This document shows, in pieces, positions 667-35,145 of a DNA stretch of 35,167 bases (the first letter of the stretch is position 1; every line of letters starts with the position of its first letter). The translations under genes and the position numbers were made by a program. The notes beneath the pieces are model-generated. The model saw nothing but the letters and a program-made list of their open reading frames with translations. It did not search any database and was not told the DNA's origin. This stretch comes from Pyrinomonadaceae bacterium (lineage in GTDB: Bacteria > Acidobacteriota > Blastocatellia > Pyrinomonadales > Pyrinomonadaceae), in the NCBI GenBank assembly GCA_030838445.1, contig JAUZFQ010000082.1:1-35167 (forward strand). The letters are read 5' to 3'.

Positions 667-1749
667 ATGAGCAACGAAAGGCCAGCCTGGCTTTTGCCGA
701 CGCCCGCGCGGAGGGATGAACCCGCGGCGGGCGCGGGCTTGCGCGCGCTGTTGCTGCGTTTGATGCGCGGCGAGAATTTGAACCGTGCGGAGGCCGCCTC
801 GTTGCTCGACGCCTTGCTCGACGAGAGTGCGACGGACGCACAGATCGCGGGCGCACTCGTCGCGCTGGCCTTGAAGGGCGCGACGGTCGAAGAGTTGACG
901 GGCATGGCCGGGGCAATGCGCGCGCGCGCCGTGCGGATCACGACGCGGCACGAGCGTTTCATAGACACGGCCGGGACGGGATCGAGCGCGGCGAAGACCT
1001 TCAATGTTTCGACGGCCGCCGCCTTCGTCATCGCGGGCGCGGGGTTGCCCGTGGCGAAGCACGGCAGTCGCGCCGCGACGAGTCGTTCGGGGAGCGCGGA
1101 CGTGTTGACTGCGCTCGGCGTCGGCGTCACGGCCGCGCCCGCCGTCTCCGAAACGTGTCTCAACGAACTCGGCATCTGCTTCATGTTCGCGCCGCTGTAT
1201 CACGGCGCGACGGCGCGCGTGGCGGGCGTGCGCCGCGAACTCGGCGTCCACACGACGTTCAACCTGCTCGGCCCTTTGACGAACCCGGCGGGTGCGCCGC
1301 GACAGATCATCGGTGTCTGGCACGCGTCGCTTGTCGAACCGCTCGCGCGCACCCTCGCCGCGCTCGGCACGGGGCGCGCGTGGGTCGTCCACGGACGCGA
1401 CGGGCTGGACGAGATCACCATCAGCGACAAGACCATTGTGGCCGAAGCGTCTGACGGCAACGTGAGCACTTTCGAGATCGCGCCCGACGACTTCGGCATC
1501 ACGCGCGCGCCGCTCGAAGAGTTGCGCGGCGGCGACGCGGAGGTGAACGCGGGGCTTATCCGTAGCGTGCTGGCGGGCGAGCGGCGCGACGCGGCGCGTG
1601 CGCTCGTCGTCGCCAACGCGGCGGGCGCGCTCTACGTCGGCGGCGCGGCGGAGAGTCTGCTTGAGGCCGCTGCACTCGCCGCCGAGAGCATTGACAGCGG
1701 CGCGGCGCTCGACAAACTACGCCGACTCGCGGAAGCGACCAACGCATGA
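667..1749 (+). CDS. trpD: Anthranilate phosphoribosyltransferase
   Basis: This enzyme joins anthranilate to PRPP, giving phosphoribosyl-anthranilate, the second committed step of tryptophan synthesis. The 360-residue protein has the family N-terminal helical domain (about residues 24-90) and the nucleoside phosphorylase-like domain. PRPP- and anthranilate-binding segments are visible: GTG at 103-105, FNVSTAAAFV, KHGSR at 131-135 and SGSADVL, with DGLDE further on. The first glycine-rich loop reads GTGSS, whereas most homologues have GTGGD, a mild deviation. The first 20 or so residues are a non-conserved extension. The stop overlaps the trpC start by 4 bp (ATGA), implying translational coupling. 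No clear Shine-Dalgarno sequence precedes the ATG. Confidence 0.96.
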   Translation: MSNERPAWLLPTPARRDEPAAGAGLRALLLRLMRGENLNRAEAASLLDALLDESATDAQIAGALVALALKGATVEELTGMAGAMRARAVRITTRHERFIDTAGTGSSAAKTFNVSTAAAFVIAGAGLPVAKHGSRAATSRSGSADVLTALGVGVTAAPAVSETCLNELGICFMFAPLYHGATARVAGVRRELGVHTTFNLLGPLTNPAGAPRQIIGVWHASLVEPLARTLAALGTGRAWVVHGRDGLDEITISDKTIVAEASDGNVSTFEIAPDDFGITRAPLEELRGGDAEVNAGLIRSVLAGERRDAARALVVANAAGALYVGGAAESLLEAAALAAESIDSGAALDKLRRLAEATNA

Positions 1750-2564
1750 CAGGCACGCCTGATTTTCTCACACGCATCATCGAGCAGAAGCGCGTGCGGC
1801 TCGCCCGCGCGTCGAATCTACGCCCGCTCGCGGAGTTGCGCGAGGAAGCCTTGAGCGTGCGCGGCGAAGCGAACGCGCACGCGTTGCGCGCCGCGCTCGG
1901 ACGCGAGCGGGGCTTCAACGTCATCGCCGAAATCAAACGCGCCTCGCCCTCGCTCGGCGACATCCGCCGCGACGCGTCGCCCGCCGGTATCGCGCTTGAG
2001 TACGAGGCCGGGGGCGCGGCCGCGATCTCCGTCCTGACCGAAGAAGATCATTTTCGTGGGTCGCTCGCAGACTTGCGCGAGGTGCGCGCCGCGACGACGC
2101 TCCCGCTGCTGCGCAAGGATTTCATCGTTGACGAGTGGCAACTGTACGAGGCGGCCGCGGCACGCGCCGACGCGCTGCTGCTCATCGTCGCCGCGCTCGA
2201 CGACGCGACGCTCGCGCGCCTCAGGCGCATCACCGAAGACGAACTCGGCATGGACGCGCTGGTCGAAGTTCACACGCTCGAAGAGTTGCGACGCGCGGCC
2301 GTTTGCGGCGCGCAGATCATCGGCGTCAACAATCGCAACCTGCACACGTTTGAAGTGTCGCTCGAAACTTCCGTGGAACTCGCGCGGCACGTGCCGCCGG
2401 GCGCGCTTCTCGTCAGCGAAAGCGGCCTGCGCACGCACGCCGACCTGCGACGCCTCAAGCAACTCGGCTATCAAGGCTTTCTCGTCGGCGAGACCTTGAT
2501 GCGCGCGGGCGATCCGGCCATAGCGCTGCGCGCGTTGATGATGGAAGAGACCCTGGTTGAGTGA
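1746..2564 (+). CDS. trpC: Indole-3-glycerol phosphate synthase
   Basis: This enzyme closes the indole ring, converting the carboxyphenylamino-deoxyribulose phosphate made by TrpF to indole-3-glycerol phosphate. The 272-residue single-domain beta/alpha barrel shows the family motifs in order: VIAEIKRASPSLG (catalytic Lys, substrate binding), LRKDFIVDEWQ (second catalytic Lys), GVNNRNLHTFEV, and the phosphate-binding ESGLRTHADLRRL. The length is normal for a monofunctional enzyme, and TrpF is encoded separately downstream. The ATG overlaps the trpD stop, so the two are co-translated. The next gene, trpF, is separated by an AT-rich 152-bp spacer with hairpins. Confidence 0.96.
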   Translation: MTGTPDFLTRIIEQKRVRLARASNLRPLAELREEALSVRGEANAHALRAALGRERGFNVIAEIKRASPSLGDIRRDASPAGIALEYEAGGAAAISVLTEEDHFRGSLADLREVRAATTLPLLRKDFIVDEWQLYEAAAARADALLLIVAALDDATLARLRRITEDELGMDALVEVHTLEELRRAAVCGAQIIGVNNRNLHTFEVSLETSVELARHVPPGALLVSESGLRTHADLRRLKQLGYQGFLVGETLMRAGDPAIALRALMMEETLVE

Positions 2565-2633
2565 GCGCGAATTTGCGAGTGTGCTTCTCAGTCATTTGCG
2601 AATTTACCTATCAGACATCTGCGAGGATGAATG

Positions 2634-2687
2634 TCAAATGCATCATTTGATATTCGTAATTTGAAATTTCAGATGAGATTTCAAATT
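2634..2687. repeat. Two AT-rich hairpins in the trpC-trpF spacer
   Basis: A 7-bp stem (TCAAATG at 2634-2640, CATTTGA at 2644-2650) is followed by a 10-bp stem (AATTTGAAAT at 2658-2667, ATTTCAAATT at 2678-2687, 10-nt loop). The spacer is AT-rich, in sharp contrast to the flanking genes. It resembles the other simple-word palindromes in this window. No T-tract suited to a terminator follows, so readthrough into trpF is expected. Confidence 0.6.
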
Positions 2688-2716
2688 TGAGGATGTGTAG
2701 GTGAGTCGGCGGCGGT

Positions 2717-3367
2717 ATGGTGAAAGTTAAACTCTGCGGCATTACAAATCTGTCTGACGCGCTCGACGCGGTTGGGGCGGGGGCGGACGCGCTCGGCTTC
2801 AACTTTTACGCGCGCAGCCCGCGTTACGTCGCGCCGGAAGATGCGCGGCGGATCGTCTCGGAGTTGCCCGCGTCGGTGCTGTGCGTCGGCGTGTTCGTCA
2901 ACGAGGATAGTGCGGCGATTGTGGAGCGGATGGCGTCGGAGTCGGGCGTGGAGGCGGTGCAGTTGCACGGCGACGAGTCGCCGGAGTATTGCGCGTCGCT
3001 CGGCGGTCTTGAAGTGATTAAAGCCCTGCGTGTGGGGAAAGGTTTTGCGCCGGAAGAGGCGAGGCGGTATCCGGTGAAATCAATTTTGCTCGACGCCTAC
3101 AACGCACACGCTCGCGGCGGGACGGGCGAGACGTTCGACTGGACGCTGGCGCGTCGGACGCGCGAAGTGGTCGCGCAGTTGTATCTCGCGGGCGGGCTGA
3201 CGCCGGACAACGTCGCGGGCGCGATTGCCGCCGTCGCGCCTTACGCGGTTGACGTGTGCAGCGGCGTGGAACTCGCGCCGGGGCGGAAAGACCTGGCGCG
3301 CGTGCGTGCGTTCGTGGCGGCGGTGCGCGCGTGCGAGAAAAACCTTGACGCCGAGCCGCCCCGTTAA
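2717..3367 (+). CDS. trpF: Phosphoribosylanthranilate isomerase
   Basis: This enzyme performs the Amadori rearrangement of phosphoribosyl-anthranilate, the third step from anthranilate. The 216-residue barrel has both catalytic residues at the positions usual for the family: Cys7 in VKLCGIT and Asp126 in LLDAY. The phosphate-binding loops LAGGLTPDNV and VDVCSGVE are present near the C terminus. It continues the trp order G-D-C-F. Downstream, the operon is interrupted by a GGDEF gene and a membrane protein gene before trpB and trpA. A promoter-like site overlaps its 3' end. Confidence 0.96.
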   Translation: MVKVKLCGITNLSDALDAVGAGADALGFNFYARSPRYVAPEDARRIVSELPASVLCVGVFVNEDSAAIVERMASESGVEAVQLHGDESPEYCASLGGLEVIKALRVGKGFAPEEARRYPVKSILLDAYNAHARGGTGETFDWTLARRTREVVAQLYLAGGLTPDNVAGAIAAVAPYAVDVCSGVELAPGRKDLARVRAFVAAVRACEKNLDAEPPR

Positions 3368-9095: not shown

Positions 9096-10433
9096 ATGAC
9101 CAACTCCATTCTCATCAAAGGCGGCGCGCTCATCACGCTGGACGCGGGCGACCGAATCCTGACGGGCGACGTGTTGATCCGCGACGGCCGCATCGCGTCA
9201 ATCGGTGAGACGGCGGACGGCGCGGCCGACGAAGTGATTGACGCGCGCGGCGCGGTCGTCCTCCCCGGCTTCGTGCAGACGCATATCCACCTTTGCCAGA
9301 CACTCTTTCGCGGCGCGGCCGACGACCTGCCGCTCATAGATTGGTTGAAGCGTCGCGTGTGGCCTTTGGAAGCCGCGCACACCGTCGCCTCCGTGCGCGC
9401 GTCGGCGCGACTCGGCATCGCGGAGATGATCAAGGGCGGCACGACCTCTGCCCTGACGATGGAGACGGTGAATCATACGGCCGAAGTTTTTCGCGTGGTC
9501 GAAGAGACCGGATTCCGCGCCACCGTCGGCAAGTGCATGATGGACGCGGGCGACGACGTGCCCGCGGAGTTGTTCGAGCAGACGGACGACTCCATTCGCG
9601 AATCGCTAGCGCTGTTGGAAGAGTGGCACGGGCGCGCGAATGGTCGCGTGCGCGCCTGCTTCGCGCCGCGCTTCGCCGTGAGTTGCACGCGCGAGTTGCT
9701 CGAACAGGTCGCACGCCTGTCGCGCGAACGCGGCGTGCTCGTCCACACGCACGCCTCCGAGAACCGCACCGAGATCGAGATGGTCGAGCGCGCGACCGGT
9801 CAGCGCAACATCGCCTATCTCTCCTCGCTCGGCCTCGCCGCGCCGCACGTCGCGCTCGCGCACTGCGTCCACCTGAACGCAGACGAACTCGACATCCTCG
9901 CGCGCACCGGCACGCACGTCCTGCATTGTCCCTCTTCAAATCTCAAACTCGGTTCGGGCGTCGCGCCCATCTTGGAGATGCTCGCGCGCGGCATCTCCGT
10001 CTCGCTCGGCGCGGACGGCGCGCCCTGCAACAACCGCCTCGACATGTTCACGGAGATGCGCACGGCCGCGCTGCTGCAAAAGGTGACGCACGGCGCGGAC
10101 GCGCTGCCCGCGCGGCGCGTGCTGCGCATGGCGACGATTGACGGCGCGCGCGCGCTCGGACTTGAAGCGGAGACTGGGACGCTTGAGGTGGGCAAGCGCG
10201 CCGACGTGATCGTCGTCGCGCTCGACCGCCTGCACCTGACACCGCGCCCGGACATCGTGTCGGCCGTCGTCTACGCGGCTGAGGCGGCCGACGTGAGGAC
10301 GGTCGTCATAGATGGTCAGGTCGTCATGCGCGAGAGGGAACTGACGACCGTCAGCGAGCGGGAAGTGATCGAGGAAGCGACCGAGCAAGCGCGACAGCTA
10401 TTTCAACGCGCGCAACTCGACGTAGAGTTTTGA
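9096..10433 (+). CDS. Amidohydrolase, 5'-deoxyadenosine / SAH-MTA deaminase type
   Basis: This is a metal-dependent deaminase of the Atz/Trz (SsnA/MtaD) amidohydrolase family, 445 residues. Metal and catalytic residues are all present: HxH at His63 and His65 ([13 protein letters not shown]), His219 with Glu222 (VHTHASEN), His256 (ALAHCVHL) and Asp307 ([10 protein letters not shown]). The segment [16 protein letters not shown] and the METVNHTAE region closely resemble bacterial 5'-deoxyadenosine deaminases, which deaminate 5'-deoxyadenosine, S-adenosylhomocysteine and methylthioadenosine in nucleoside salvage. Exact substrate preference cannot be read from sequence. No Shine-Dalgarno sequence is evident before the ATG. 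It follows the recA terminator and is probably its own transcription unit. Confidence 0.88.
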
Positions 10434-10511
10434 TGAGATAAAGCTGCGCCCGTCATCTGCCTGGAACGCGCGGGCAACGGATGCCGTTAACCAACAGAGG
10501 CGACTAGGACG

Positions 10512-11948
10512 ATGGTCTCAAAAGAGGACGAACTGGGGCGGAAGCTGCCCGCCGGTAAGACCCTTGAGTTCGGCACGCAGCGCGGCATGAGGTTGTTGCT
10601 CGATGCGTTCAAACTAAAAGGGCTGGCCGATGGCGCACCTCTGCAACGCTGGCCTGACCTGTCGGGCGAAGGCAACGACGGCGTGACCGCCGACGCGGCT
10701 TACCGTCTGACTTATCACGCGGCCGAGTGGGAAGACGGATTGCCCTACGTGTCGGCCGACGACACGACGAAGCAAATGACGGTCGCCGCCCCGCCGGGCG
10801 CAGAGAGAACGTTCTTCGTCGTCGCACGCCAGCAGTCGCCCTTCCCCTTCGCCTACCTGTTGAAGTTCAACATCAACAACCACATTTTTTCCGGCCCCCA
10901 TCCGGGCACGGGCTGGGGCTTGTATAAAAAGTCGGGCGCGCAGGGAACTCTGCCGACGGGCTACAGCACGGAGTGGACAATTCTCTGCATGCGCCAGAAC
11001 GCGCCCAACAGCATCACGTTCTTCGTTGACGGCGTGGCGGCCGAAACCATCACGCCCGCGGAGTCGCCTGCGTCGTTCACGGAATTCACGTTGGGGCCGG
11101 GGGCGGGTCGCGTGCGGCAAGTCTGCATGTTCGACCGCGCGCTGACGGACGCGGAGGTCGTGCGGCTGACGAACCGGCTGCGCAGTTACAACCGCCTGTC
11201 GTACCGTTACGAATACATTGACTTCCTGACCACGCCTGCGCTCGTCGTGCGCAAAGAAGGCTTCAAGGGCGCGCGCCCGCTCGTCATCTTGAACCACGCC
11301 GCCGGGTTCACCGAACGCCAGTTCCACGACCTACAGGTTTACCGCACGCTGCTCACCGCGCTTCTCGACGAAGGCTACGTCGTCGCTGCCTCGCGCCTGA
11401 CGGACAACCCCGCGACCGGGGCTAACAACTGGGGCAATCAGGGCGCTGTTAACGCGAACGCGGAGATGTTCGGCTACGTCAGGGATCACTTCCGCGTGAA
11501 CCCGAATCAGGTGGCGATGATCGGCAGTTCGATGGGTGGGCTGGCGACGATGCTCGCCTTCGCCGACGGGCGCATCCCGTTGCGCGGCGCGGCCTTGTAC
11601 AACGCGGTCTTAAACCTGCGCTATCAGTACGACACGCGCCGTGACATGGCGCAGGCGATCAGAGTCGCTTACGGCATTGCGGCCGACGGCTCGGACTACA
11701 ACCTCAAAACCGCTGGTCACGATCCCGTGCTGCGCCCGCCCGCGAACTACGCCGGTCGCCGTTTCCGCTTTTACTCCGCACCCACCGACATGCTCGTCTC
11801 ACACGACGCGAACAGCGAAACCATGTCGGCCTTAATCGGGGCACTGACGACCGAGGCGGGCGTCGTGGAGTTGGCGGGCGGGCACGACGCGAACGTACAG
11901 ATAACGATTCCCGACCTGCTCGCCTTCCTCCGTCGCTGCTTCGCCTGA
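10512..11948 (+). CDS. LamG/concanavalin-like domain fused to alpha/beta hydrolase
   Basis: This 478-residue protein has no signal peptide. Residues about 25-225 look like a concanavalin A-like (LamG) jelly roll: WPDLSGEGNDG, an aromatic-rich middle, FFVDG, and a terminal VCMFDRALTDAEV segment typical of this fold. Residues about 240-478 form an alpha/beta hydrolase: oxyanion region LVILNHAAGF, nucleophile elbow GSSMGG with Ser340, and candidate acid and base Asp426 (SAPTD) and His458 (AGGHD). It could be a carbohydrate- or polyester-directed esterase, the first domain binding the substrate. A start at 10512 is supported by AGAGG 11 bp upstream. The fusion with no export signal is unusual. 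Substrate and localisation remain unknown. Confidence 0.7.
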   Translation: MVSKEDELGRKLPAGKTLEFGTQRGMRLLLDAFKLKGLADGAPLQRWPDLSGEGNDGVTADAAYRLTYHAAEWEDGLPYVSADDTTKQMTVAAPPGAERTFFVVARQQSPFPFAYLLKFNINNHIFSGPHPGTGWGLYKKSGAQGTLPTGYSTEWTILCMRQNAPNSITFFVDGVAAETITPAESPASFTEFTLGPGAGRVRQVCMFDRALTDAEVVRLTNRLRSYNRLSYRYEYIDFLTTPALVVRKEGFKGARPLVILNHAAGFTERQFHDLQVYRTLLTALLDEGYVVAASRLTDNPATGANNWGNQGAVNANAEMFGYVRDHFRVNPNQVAMIGSSMGGLATMLAFADGRIPLRGAALYNAVLNLRYQYDTRRDMAQAIRVAYGIAADGSDYNLKTAGHDPVLRPPANYAGRRFRFYSAPTDMLVSHDANSETMSALIGALTTEAGVVELAGGHDANVQITIPDLLAFLRRCFA

Positions 11949-28110: not shown

Positions 28111-28293
28111 CCTATAGTTGATCGCGCGAGTCGAACGGAAAGGGCTTGGAACGAGGTGTTTGAGCGACGTTTGTAGCAACGTTTCGGTGTTCTGAAACCT
28201 CAAACCTTGCGCCATCCGATTCAATCCTGTGCAGGTCAATATATCCCCCGGTCGTTTTTACAGAAAAGTTTACGAGTCATACGCGATACTGAA

Positions 28294-30381
28294 ATGAACA
28301 TTAGCAACCGCCCCGCCCGCAAAAGTTTTATCGTCGCTCTCGTCCTCGCGTCGCTGTGCCTCGGCAACTTCGGCGGGTTGACGGCGCGCGGGCAATTTGT
28401 GCCGGGCGGGAAGCGCGACGCGGCTGCTAGAAAGTCGGGCGCGCAGACGACAAGCGCGACGGGCGGCAAAGTCAAAACCCCCGGCGCGCCGCTGACGAAG
28501 TTCGGCGCGCGTCTCGACAAACTCTCGCCCGACCTCGCGCAACAGTTAGTTCGTTCCGTCAGCAACAAGAAAATCTTTCGCGTCATCTGCCGGTTCAACG
28601 CTCCGGCCGGGAGCGGCGTCCAAGCCGTCTACACGCACCCGCGCGTGCGCGTCAACTACGCCTTCCAAAACTCCAGCTTTGTGAGCGCGGAGATGCCCGC
28701 GAGCGACGTGTTCGAGTTGACGAGGTTCGCGGAGATTTCTTACATCACGCCCGACCGCGAGGTGCGCACGCTCGGCCACGTCTCGGCGACGACCGGCGCA
28801 GACCTCGTGCGCACACAGGCGACCGGCGGACTCGACGGCACGGGCATCGGCATCGCCGTGCTTGATTCGGGCATCAAGCGCAGCCACAAATCTTTCCGCG
28901 ACGGGCGCACGACCGACAGCGACGTGCGCGTCGTGGCCGAAGAGGATTTCGTCAACTACGGCAACGCCTCCGACCAGTACGGGCACGGCACGCACGTCGC
29001 CTCGCTCGCGGGCGGCAACGGGCGCATCGCCAACGCCGCTTACGTCGGCATCGCGCCGAACGCCAACATCGTCAACCTCCGCGTGCTGGACAACGAGGGG
29101 CGCGGCTCGGTCTCGTCCGTGTTGCGCGCGCTCGATTGGGTGATGACGAATCGCGCGCTCTACAACATCCGCGTCGTCAACATGAGCCTCGGCATGCCCG
29201 CGGTTGACTCTTACAAGAACGATCCCGTCTGTCTTGCGGTGCGGCGTCTGGTGGACGCAGGGATCGTCGTCGTCGCGGCGGCGGGCAACGACGGCAAGTC
29301 CGACGACGGGCAAAAAGTTTACGGGCAGATACACTCGCCGGGCATAGAGCCTTCCGCGATCACCGTCGGCGCGACGAACACCTTCGGCACGAACGAGCGC
29401 GGCGACGATTCGGTCGCCACCTACAGTTCGCGCGGCCCCACACGCGGCAGCTACTTGGACGCGGCGGGCGAACGCCATTTCGACAACCTGATCAAACCCG
29501 AACTCGTCGCCCCCGGCAACAAGTTGATCGCGGCGCAGGCCGAGGGCGAGTGCCCCGCGGGCGTGGATGATTGCGGCGCGAAGAATTACCTGCTCACGCG
29601 GAATCCGCAGATGGAGGCGGGCGTGAGCGCGGACGACAGCCGCGCGATGATGTTCATGAGCGGCACTTCGATGGCCGCCCCGCAGGTGGCAGGCGCGGCT
29701 GCGCTGCTCCTGCAAGTCAACCCGCGACTTACGCCAAACTTGATCAAAACGATCTTGATGTACACGGCGCAGCCGCTCTCCGGCTTCAACATGTTCGAGC
29801 AGGGCGCGGGGCAACTCAACATCGAGGGCGCAGTCCGTCTCGCCAAACTCGTGCGCCGCGACCTGACGAGCGGCACTCCGCTCGGCGCGCCGTTGCTCAC
29901 GGGCGCAGCCCCGACGCCGCGCACCACCATCGCCGGGCACACGTTCACATGGGCGCAAGGCGTCGTCCTCAACTACACATTCGCCACCGGACTTGACCTC
30001 ATCACCGATTACCAGCGCATCTACGACCTCGGCGTGATCATCAGCGACGGCGTGATCATTAGTGACGGCGTGATTATCAGCGATAACATCCTGCGGCGAA
30101 ACCCGGCCTTCCTCGGCGACGGCGTGATCATCAGCGATAACATCCTGACGAGCGACGGCGGCATGCTCGGCGGCGGGACGCCTTACGTCGCCGTCGGCGT
30201 GATCATCAGCGACGGCGTGATCATCAGTGACGGGCTGCTGCGCGACGATGGCGTTATTATCAGCGACGGCGTTATTATCAGCGACGTTTTATTGAAGGCT
30301 CTCAGGACGATGGCCGACGGTGACCGCACGAGTTACGCGCCCGTGGTGGTTGACACCGGCCAGGACTATCGAGGCTACTAA
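28294..30381 (+). CDS. Secreted subtilisin-like (S8) peptidase with GVIISD repeats
   Basis: The 695-residue serine protease starts at ATG 28294; the upstream in-frame extension (from 28207) lies before the signal peptide. That peptide (about 1-32, FIVALVLASLCLGNFGGL) is followed by an inhibitor-like prodomain (about 85-160, ending near ISYITPDREVRTLG). The catalytic triad is intact: Asp191 (IAVLDSGIKRSH), His231 (YGHGTHVASLAG), Ser459 (MSGTSMAAPQVAG), with the oxyanion Asn in AAGNDG at 331. The last 115 residues carry eight copies of a short unit GVIISD in clusters, encoded by nearly identical DNA. This type of tail is recognised in acidobacterial S8 proteins but of unknown role. A GNAT gene follows with about 70 bp gap. 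Confidence 0.93.
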   Translation: MNISNRPARKSFIVALVLASLCLGNFGGLTARGQFVPGGKRDAAARKSGAQTTSATGGKVKTPGAPLTKFGARLDKLSPDLAQQLVRSVSNKKIFRVICRFNAPAGSGVQAVYTHPRVRVNYAFQNSSFVSAEMPASDVFELTRFAEISYITPDREVRTLGHVSATTGADLVRTQATGGLDGTGIGIAVLDSGIKRSHKSFRDGRTTDSDVRVVAEEDFVNYGNASDQYGHGTHVASLAGGNGRIANAAYVGIAPNANIVNLRVLDNEGRGSVSSVLRALDWVMTNRALYNIRVVNMSLGMPAVDSYKNDPVCLAVRRLVDAGIVVVAAAGNDGKSDDGQKVYGQIHSPGIEPSAITVGATNTFGTNERGDDSVATYSSRGPTRGSYLDAAGERHFDNLIKPELVAPGNKLIAAQAEGECPAGVDDCGAKNYLLTRNPQMEAGVSADDSRAMMFMSGTSMAAPQVAGAAALLLQVNPRLTPNLIKTILMYTAQPLSGFNMFEQGAGQLNIEGAVRLAKLVRRDLTSGTPLGAPLLTGAAPTPRTTIAGHTFTWAQGVVLNYTFATGLDLITDYQRIYDLGVIISDGVIISDGVIISDNILRRNPAFLGDGVIISDNILTSDGGMLGGGTPYVAVGVIISDGVIISDGLLRDDGVIISDGVIISDVLLKALRTMADGDRTSYAPVVVDTGQDYRGY
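30031..30288 (+). repeat. GVIISD repeat array in subtilase C terminus
   Basis: Eight copies of the codon block for GVIISD (consensus DNA GGCGTGATCATCAGCGAC) occur as 3+1+2+2, separated by short spacers such as NILRRNPAFLG. Copies differ mostly at third bases, implying recent slippage or selection on the protein sequence. Confidence 0.9.
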
Positions 30382-30454
30382 AGATGTGTGCGGCAACACC
30401 CGCGCAAAAATGTTCTGCGAACCTGACCCTATCTCGCTACACACGCTAATCGTC

Positions 30455-31363
30455 ATGTCTCGAACGTTTAAGCCAGCCATCACGACGCCGCGCCCGCGCG
30501 CGCAAACCGCTCCGGCCGTCGCACACCGAGCGCCGCAACTTCTCGCCCACGGCGAGGAAGGAGAGGTGTTGAACTTTCTCGCCGCGAGTCCCGTGCGGAA
30601 CGTCATCTTGTCGAGCTTGATCCGCGACAACGGCTTCGAGCGCAGTTTGAATCGCGGCGACTTCTATGCGTGCCGCGACGCGCGGGGCGAGATCACGGGC
30701 GTCGCTTTGATCGGGCATCACATTCTTTTTGCGAGCCGGTGTATCGAGACGGTCGAGGCGTTTGCGCGAAGGGCGCGCGCGTCGGCCGACGCGCACCTGA
30801 TTCTCGGCGAGCGTGAATGGGCCGGGCGTTTCTGGTCTGCTTACGCGCGCGAGGGCGAGTCGCCGTTGCTCGTGCGGCGTGAATTATTGCTCGAACAGAA
30901 GTGGCCGGTCGCGGTGCGCGAGTCCGTGCCGAATCTGCGCCCGGCGACGCTCGAAGATTTATCGCTGGTCGCCGCGGTTCACGCGCAGTTGGCTTTTGAG
31001 GAAAGTTTGGTCAACCCGCTGGAAGTTGACCCGGAAGGGTTTCGCGCGCGGCTGGCGCGGCGCATCGAGACGGGGCGCGTCTGGGTGTGGATCGAAGAGG
31101 GGCGTCTGATCTTCAAGGCCGACACTGTGTGCAGCACGCCCGAAGTGATCTATCTGGAAGGCGTGTACGTGGATTCCGGCGAGCGGGGCAAGGGCTACGG
31201 GCTGCGCTGCCTGTCGCAGTTGAGCCGCGAGTTGTTGATGCGCGCCAAGTCGCTCTGCCTGCTCGTCAACGAAGAGAACGAACCGGCGCGCGCCTTCTAC
31301 CGGCGCGCGGGTTACAAGCTGCATAGCCACTACGACACCATTTATCTCCCGCCACAAATTTGA
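30455..31363 (+). CDS. GNAT acetyltransferase with DUF4081-type N-terminal domain
   Basis: The 302-residue protein is assigned the ATG at 30455 (MSRTFKPAITT); the longer in-frame start at 30320 would overlap the subtilase gene. Its N-terminal half resembles DUF4081 domains (LNFLAASPVRNVILSSLIRDNG). The C-terminal half is a GNAT fold: YLEGVYVDSGERGKGYGLRCL, with the acetyl-CoA loop RGKGYG, then NEENEPARAFYRRAGYKLHSHYDTIYL. It probably acetylates a small molecule or a peptide/protein amine, with unknown substrate. It follows the subtilase on the same strand and may share its sigma-54 promoter. It is not the MdnD-type GNAT of microviridin clusters by domain layout, but the idea cannot be dismissed. 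Confidence 0.85.
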   Translation: MSRTFKPAITTPRPRAQTAPAVAHRAPQLLAHGEEGEVLNFLAASPVRNVILSSLIRDNGFERSLNRGDFYACRDARGEITGVALIGHHILFASRCIETVEAFARRARASADAHLILGEREWAGRFWSAYAREGESPLLVRRELLLEQKWPVAVRESVPNLRPATLEDLSLVAAVHAQLAFEESLVNPLEVDPEGFRARLARRIETGRVWVWIEEGRLIFKADTVCSTPEVIYLEGVYVDSGERGKGYGLRCLSQLSRELLMRAKSLCLLVNEENEPARAFYRRAGYKLHSHYDTIYLPPQI

Positions 31364-34684: not shown

Positions 34685-34720
34685 TTGTCATTGACCCGCC
34701 TCGCCGTTTGTAATAAAACT
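34685..34720 (+). promoter_or_regulatory. Possible promoter of the microviridin-type precursor (weak)
   Basis: TTGACC (34691-34696) and TAAAAC (34714-34719), 17 bp apart, precede the precursor ATG by about 50 bp; the region includes TAATAAAA. Matches are modest. Readthrough from the upstream regulator gene is also possible, since no terminator is seen between them. Confidence 0.25.
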
Positions 34721-34767
34721 CCGTGTGTTTCACCGGCCTCGCTTTGACAAAATAAGGAGACCCCAGT

Positions 34768-34968
34768 ATGAAACAGCAAGAGAAAACCAACCCCGACACC
34801 TCGCACGACGACACACCTAAGGCCAGCGAAACTCCATTCTTCGCGCGCTTCCTCGAAGGCCAGCACGCCGAAGCCACACCGGGCGCGGCGAACGACGAGG
34901 CCATTTTTCAAACCTTGAAATACCCCTCCGACCGCGACGAAGATTGGAAGCCCTTGTCTCATGTCTAA
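34768..34968 (+). CDS. Microviridin-type graspetide (omega-ester peptide) precursor
   Basis: The 66-residue peptide has AAGGAG 8 bp upstream of its ATG. It carries the leader helix PFFARFLEGQ (23-32), the ligase recognition motif of microviridin precursors. The C-terminal core TLKYPSDRDEDW (49-60) matches microviridin TxKYPSDxEE. By analogy, Thr49-Asp55 and Ser54-Asp57 esters and a Lys51-Glu58 amide would be formed by ATP-grasp ligases, giving a tricyclic protease-inhibitor-like peptide. The first 22 residues are hydrophilic. The ligase, acetyltransferase and exporter genes are not in the window; they would lie to the right. Asp at the first acidic ring position and Arg before it vary from cyanobacterial cores. 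A 42-bp palindrome follows. Ring pattern is inferred from the family. Confidence 0.9.
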   Translation: MKQQEKTNPDTSHDDTPKASETPFFARFLEGQHAEATPGAANDEAIFQTLKYPSDRDEDWKPLSHV

Positions 34969-35103
34969 ACGGCGCGTGCGGCGTCGTGCGGCGCTCGTAA
35001 CTCCGAAGTTCAGAGAGGCCGGGTTGCGCGCCCGCCGCACACGACTTTAACGTGAGTCGAAACTCTAAACACTAAACCAAGACGCTCTCTCGCAAGAGCG
35101 CCA

Positions 35104-35145
35104 CAGGCGAGAAGGGCATCCCGCGCGGGATGCCCTTCTCGCCTG
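35104..35145. terminator. Perfect 42-bp palindrome (terminator or attenuator)
   Basis: CAGGCGAGAAGGGCATCCCGC (21 bases) followed immediately by its exact reverse complement. A T-tract is absent; TGACTTGTAAAAC follows. It lies about 135 bp after the precursor stop, where partial termination would let a short precursor mRNA accumulate over downstream enzyme mRNA. It could also be a protein-binding or recombination site. A smaller stem, CGCTCT/AGAGCG (35083-35100), precedes it. Confidence 0.65.

Follow-up and report, generated by a model that had tools for sequence, protein, structure and literature searches.

Does a short open reading frame at the right-hand end of an acidobacterial contig encode a genuine microviridin precursor and, if so, where are its two ATP-grasp ligases, what would the peptide act on, and how unusual is it? 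The window analyzed here (the whole stretch of DNA) is an entire contig, G000:C143, of 35167 bp, from a genome of 4.56 Mb in 282 contigs (84% complete). Its host belongs to the Pyrinomonadaceae (class Blastocatellia, phylum Acidobacteriota), as an earlier note, made from the sequence itself, had supposed in naming an acidobacterium.

The precursor gene and its core

The features of the locus are the following.

28207-30381, same strand as the precursor and about 4.4 kb away: S8 subtilase
30320-31363, 3.4 kb upstream of the precursor: GNAT, 347 aa
31586..34654, + strand: TPR / sigma-54-activator / Fis-HTH regulator, 113 bp 5' of the precursor (domains; synteny in G001 and G002)
34691..34719, + strand: candidate promoter TTGACC-17-TAAAAC (conserved in the genus by alignment, with TAGAAC in the relatives; below the threshold of the consensus scanner)
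34754..34759, + strand: ribosome-binding site AAGGAG, 8 nt 5' of the ATG (identical in 3 genomes)
34768..34968, + strand: microviridin precursor peptide gene, 66 aa (ORF; NF033738; PF12559; dN/dS about 0.2)
34834..34863, + strand: PFFARFLEGQ motif of the leader (residues 23-32), corresponding to the helix by which microviridin leaders dock to the ligases (sequence; role of PFFARFL from PMC8939145)
34912..34941, + strand: core TLKYPSDRDE, residues 49-58, fitting the consensus TX1KYPSDX2(D/E)(E/D)
34942..34965, + strand: variable C-terminal tail DWKPLSHV (genus variants DGKPLSHV and DPLYHI)
35082..35145, + strand: two stem-loops between the precursor and ligase genes (fold; genome-wide pattern search; alignment)

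The precursor ORF (34768-34968, + strand; full translation MKQQEKTNPDTSHDDTPKASETPFFARFLEGQHAEATPGAANDEAIFQTLKYPSDRDEDWKPLSHV) matches the NCBIfam microviridin/marinostatin model NF033738 with 46.4 bits (E=5.1e-12; cut-off 26) and the Pfam family PF12559 (Inhibitor_I10) with 36.2 bits (E=7.1e-9; cut-off 21), which places the family match far beyond chance. Together with the AAGGAG site, these matches confirm the microviridin-type precursor, the leader and core signatures and the good ribosome-binding site that had been read from the DNA. PFFARFL (residues 23-29) is unchanged throughout the genus. The precursor has a single core and no double-glycine motif, and thus belongs to class I as defined in PMC13039773. 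For the core with its tail, TLKYPSDRDEDWKPLSHV, the computed mass is 2185.08 Da, or 2131.05 Da minus three waters; for the whole precursor it is 7469.52 Da, or 7415.49 Da minus three waters. Neither a sigma-70 promoter nor an intrinsic terminator was detected by the consensus scan of the + strand.

The precursor was compared codon by codon (dN/dS by NG86) with its two same-genus orthologs, from G001 (Pyrinomonadaceae bacterium BP_17) and G002. Of the codon changes against G001, 5 are synonymous and 3 nonsynonymous (dN/dS 0.19); against G002 (residues 1-59) the corresponding counts are 12 and 19 (dN/dS 0.24). Among the three genomes, the leader motif (residues 22-32) and the core (residues 49-59) differ exclusively by synonymous changes. 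By these codon counts, the precursor gene is under purifying selection. The nonsynonymous differences from G001 fall at residues 46, 48 and 60, all flanking the core; three such changes are not enough to argue for diversifying selection there.

The earlier note had taken the core for a new variant, on account of Asp at the Ser-linked position and Arg between the SD and the acid pair. This does not stand up: the published consensus (PMC5934393) leaves X2 free and accepts either acid, D or E, at each of the two acid positions, so that the window core lies within the known range, and both substitutions occur in cyanobacteria. Among 150 sampled cyanobacterial cores the acid pair was ED in 75, DE in 29, DD in 25 and EE in 21; Asp occupied the Ser-linked position in 54, and Arg followed SD at X2 in 3. 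The exact core TLKYPSDRDE was present in none of these 150 and in 9 of the 22 acidobacterial cores, all from the window's family; Leu at X1 was found in 19 of the 22. As it stands, TLKYPSDRDE offers itself for in vitro cyclization by known ligases.

The neighbouring subtilase, GNAT and regulator

Subtilase, GNAT and the TPR/sigma-54/Fis regulator are all conserved at the locus in the genus, and the regulator gene occupies this place in the window's genus only. It is possible that this regulator controls the precursor.

From the subtilase, the earlier note had derived an endogenous protease-inhibitor pair, in which the peptide would be the dedicated inhibitor of the S8 enzyme encoded at 28207-30381. 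The two genes are indeed close (about 4.4 kb apart), on one strand and syntenic in the genus, and a Leu or Met residue in P1 fits enzymes of the subtilisin type (PMC7823629). According to the same source, the choice of target depends on position 5 (Leu here), where Leu gave better elastase inhibition in one series and also subtilisin inhibition in another. Distribution and synteny argue against such a specific pair. Subtilase homologs (E<=1e-60) were found in 34 of 37 family genomes, with up to 11 per genome, versus microviridin precursors in 5 of the 37. The subtilase-GNAT pair persists in genera without microviridin; of 9 subtilase loci from other genera, 7 have a GNAT homolog after the subtilase. 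The microviridin loci of other genera had no such subtilase within the 6-20 kb of DNA examined. We therefore regard a dedicated subtilase inhibitor as unsupported and very unlikely; it would be compatible with the biosynthesis proposed below. Within this one genus, subtilase and peptide may conceivably form a co-regulated pair.

The GNAT gene (30320-31363) was considered as MdnD and not assigned to it, as in other genera the orthologous genes come after subtilases. As side observations, the S8 family is expanded in the window's bacterial family (34/37 genomes), and the subtilase at 28207-30381 carries the motif GVIISD eight times in its C-terminal part. GVIISD occurs 8 times in G001, once in G002 and 0 times in the other genera examined.

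The ligase pair, the assembly gap and the proposed product

The contig ends 199 bp past the precursor. As the window is a whole contig, this edge is the end of an assembled piece and not an arbitrary cut. No ligase was found in the window's own assembly (84% complete) with TIGR04184 or with the G001 MvdC as query, the latter having matches in 16 of 97 relatives. The earlier note had placed two ATP-grasp ligases to the right and held that a lack of homologous precursors beside ligases in related genomes would speak against this; such precursor-ligase neighbours were indeed present (G001, G002 and others). In both G001 and G002, the orthologous precursor is followed by two ATP-grasp genes, the first encoding MvdC (TIGR04185: 436.5 and 436.8 bits, respectively; equivalog cut-off 425) and the second MvdD (TIGR04184: 480.4 and 484.4 bits; equivalog cut-off 475). 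The closest solved structures are 5ig8 for the MvdC-like and 5ig9 for the MvdD-like protein, which we take to be the microviridin J ligases MdnB and MdnC, respectively.

Sigma-54 gene, precursor and intergenic hairpin come in the same order in G001, and synteny therefore crosses the window edge. Contig C143 stops at G001 position 1223, and contig C213 of the same genome picks up at 3333 with 95% identity. About 2.1 kb of G001 are uncovered between the two contigs; the ligases occupy 1251-3208, and both flanks of the gap are 92-95% identical to G001. Since the uncovered stretch matches the extent of the ligase pair, the gap fits mvdC plus mvdD. From the relatives we infer that both genes lie inside this assembly gap of ~2.1 kb, immediately to the right of the window. 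The left flank of the gap contains a strong palindrome, and the right flank in G001 an inverted repeat of the GGGGAAAGGG type, similar to one on the window genome's own contig C6; the contig break is plausibly due to these repeats.

In G072 (C117/C89), G077 (C208) and L046, too, contig ends coincide with the precursor-mvdC junction or lie close to it. Clusters split at contig ends would escape genome mining that proceeds contig by contig. A 418-aa protein is conserved 3' of the ligases on the opposite strand (L011 4033-5286 in G001; L137 756-2009 on the own contig C213); it looks ATP-grasp-like by eye and has no Pfam match. No transporter was recognized by eye among the ORFs adjoining the ligases in G001 and G002.

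Of the two stem-loops that separate precursor and ligase genes, the second (35104-35145) has a perfect 19-bp stem and a fold z-score of -8.3. It was found at one site in its own genome by pattern search; G001 and G002 have it in the corresponding position, and in G002 its pairing is kept by compensatory changes on both sides. These data support a maintained palindrome, for which an RNA attenuator and a DNA operator are indistinguishable with three sequences; the element is a candidate attenuator or RNA-stability element. A dispersed repeat was rejected in view of the single site in the own genome (G002 has one extra, weaker match), and an Rfam search of the hairpin returned sub-threshold microRNA look-alikes only.

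Together, the above observations make it very probable that this is a class I microviridin locus whose product is a tricyclic serine-protease inhibitor, and that its ligase pair lies in the gap. That the ligases were lost in this strain, leaving the precursor as a remnant or as a substrate modified in trans, we consider highly unlikely. The own-genome assembly does lack a ligase and the genome G157 (see below) shows that orphan precursors can occur, but the extent of the gap and the high identity of its flanks to G001 fit the ligase pair, and the precursor retains an intact ORF and ribosome-binding site and is under purifying selection.

In the biosynthesis that we propose for the class I locus, MvdD would bind the 66-aa precursor via the PFFARFL helix and esterify Thr49-Asp55 and Ser54-Asp57, giving two lactones. 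MvdC would next form a Lys51-Glu58 lactam, yielding a tricyclic cage. These three rings are predicted by analogy with microviridin J, and reaction order and target class likewise follow from homology. Lactonization by MvdD, lactamization by MvdC and the PFFARFL helix as guide are described in PMC13039773 and PMC8939145. The leader would be cleaved by a protease encoded outside the locus: none was recognized at the locus, and a cluster-encoded leader protease is usually absent from class I (PMC13039773). The cyclized peptide would act as a serine-protease inhibitor in the subtilisin/elastase range, its P1-type residue being Leu50. A bicyclic, marinostatin-like product with both lactones and no lactam would suit the inclusion of marinostatin in NF033738, but is highly unlikely, as the lactam position is Lys and not Arg in 22 of 22 acidobacterial cores and an MvdC equivalog adjoins the orthologs; judged from the genes alone, the locus lacks the marinostatin character (bicyclic, without the Lys lactam).

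Distribution and comparison with known systems

NF033738 matches were found in 10 of 162 genomes of the class and in 2 of 396 genomes sampled evenly across the phylum, both from the window's family. In the class, a precursor together with mvdC and/or mvdD was also present in G003, G004, G072 (on split contigs), G086, G090 and G152; the precursors of G003, G004:C23, G072, G086 and G090 have 2-4 cores. A precursor is no guarantee of a full ligase pair, as two genomes illustrate. In G157 (7% contamination), neither MvdC nor MvdD was found; its orphan precursor with the core TLKYPSDRDE (C605; L141 2608-5750) lies on the opposite strand to an astacin (M12A) protease gene, behind which comes a divergent ATP-grasp gene of the graspetide type. 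In G004:C24 (L014, about 9670-11034), the precursor is followed by MvdC alone; MvdD is encoded at the separate locus C23 and may act in trans on the C24 precursor.

Two further arrangements were observed. G086 (Blastocatellia AA13; L143 8585-18653) has two precursors with two cores each, with mvdC/mvdD, and close by on the opposite strand are genes for a C39-peptidase ABC transporter, HlyD and ThiF. The class-level relative G042 (C159:63362-67849; L023, L038, L041) has three consecutive graspetide-type ATP-grasp genes.

In an MvdC tree (quick ML, rooted on MvdD, no bootstrap), the 69 cyanobacterial rows and an unranked cyanobacterium (aff. Roholtiella) formed one clade (SH-aLRT 97), and the acidobacterial, planctomycetal and myxococcal rows fell outside it. 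This position argues against a recent cyanobacterial gift; recent transfer from cyanobacteria is unsupported by this quick tree, which has long branches and a sample gathered by an acidobacterial query.

In the part of the open literature on microviridin and Acidobacteria that was accessible we found no description of an acidobacterial microviridin locus, and we do not claim priority; for microviridin and Blastocatellia the open literature gave nothing. Judged by synteny, the locus is complete, and it is a genuine, conventional microviridin locus in an under-described phylum. The present data thus document complete microviridin loci in Acidobacteriota (Blastocatellia) and leave the accepted view of how microviridins work unaffected. 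A broader scenario would combine a blastocatellial branch not derived within the sampled cyanobacteria, a fixed core TLKYPSDRDE with varying flanks, a precursor:ligase output set by the hairpin, and a peptide restraining the bacterium's own expanded S8 subtilases; as a whole, we consider it highly improbable.

The closest known systems are the class I microviridins (B, J and L; mdnA/mvdE with mdnB/mvdC and mdnC/mvdD). Common to both are the PFFARFL leader, the lack of a GG motif and a single core of the form TXKYPSDX(D/E)(E/D), and MvdC and MvdD equivalogs adjoin the window's orthologs. The window locus differs in being acidobacterial, in the Arg that precedes its Asp-Glu acid pair, in the 8-residue C-terminal tail of its precursor and in having two hairpins after the precursor gene, ahead of mvdC; neither MdnD nor MdnE, both optional, was recognized among its neighbours. 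The multi-core class II microviridins (AMdnA type) resemble the related acidobacterial precursors with 2-4 cores, whereas the window precursor is single-core and has no GG motif. Marinostatin, a bicyclic relative (PMC7823629), shares the NCBIfam family and the PFFARFL leader. Unlike in marinostatin, a third ring is expected here, since the window core keeps its Lys and the orthologs are accompanied by MvdC.
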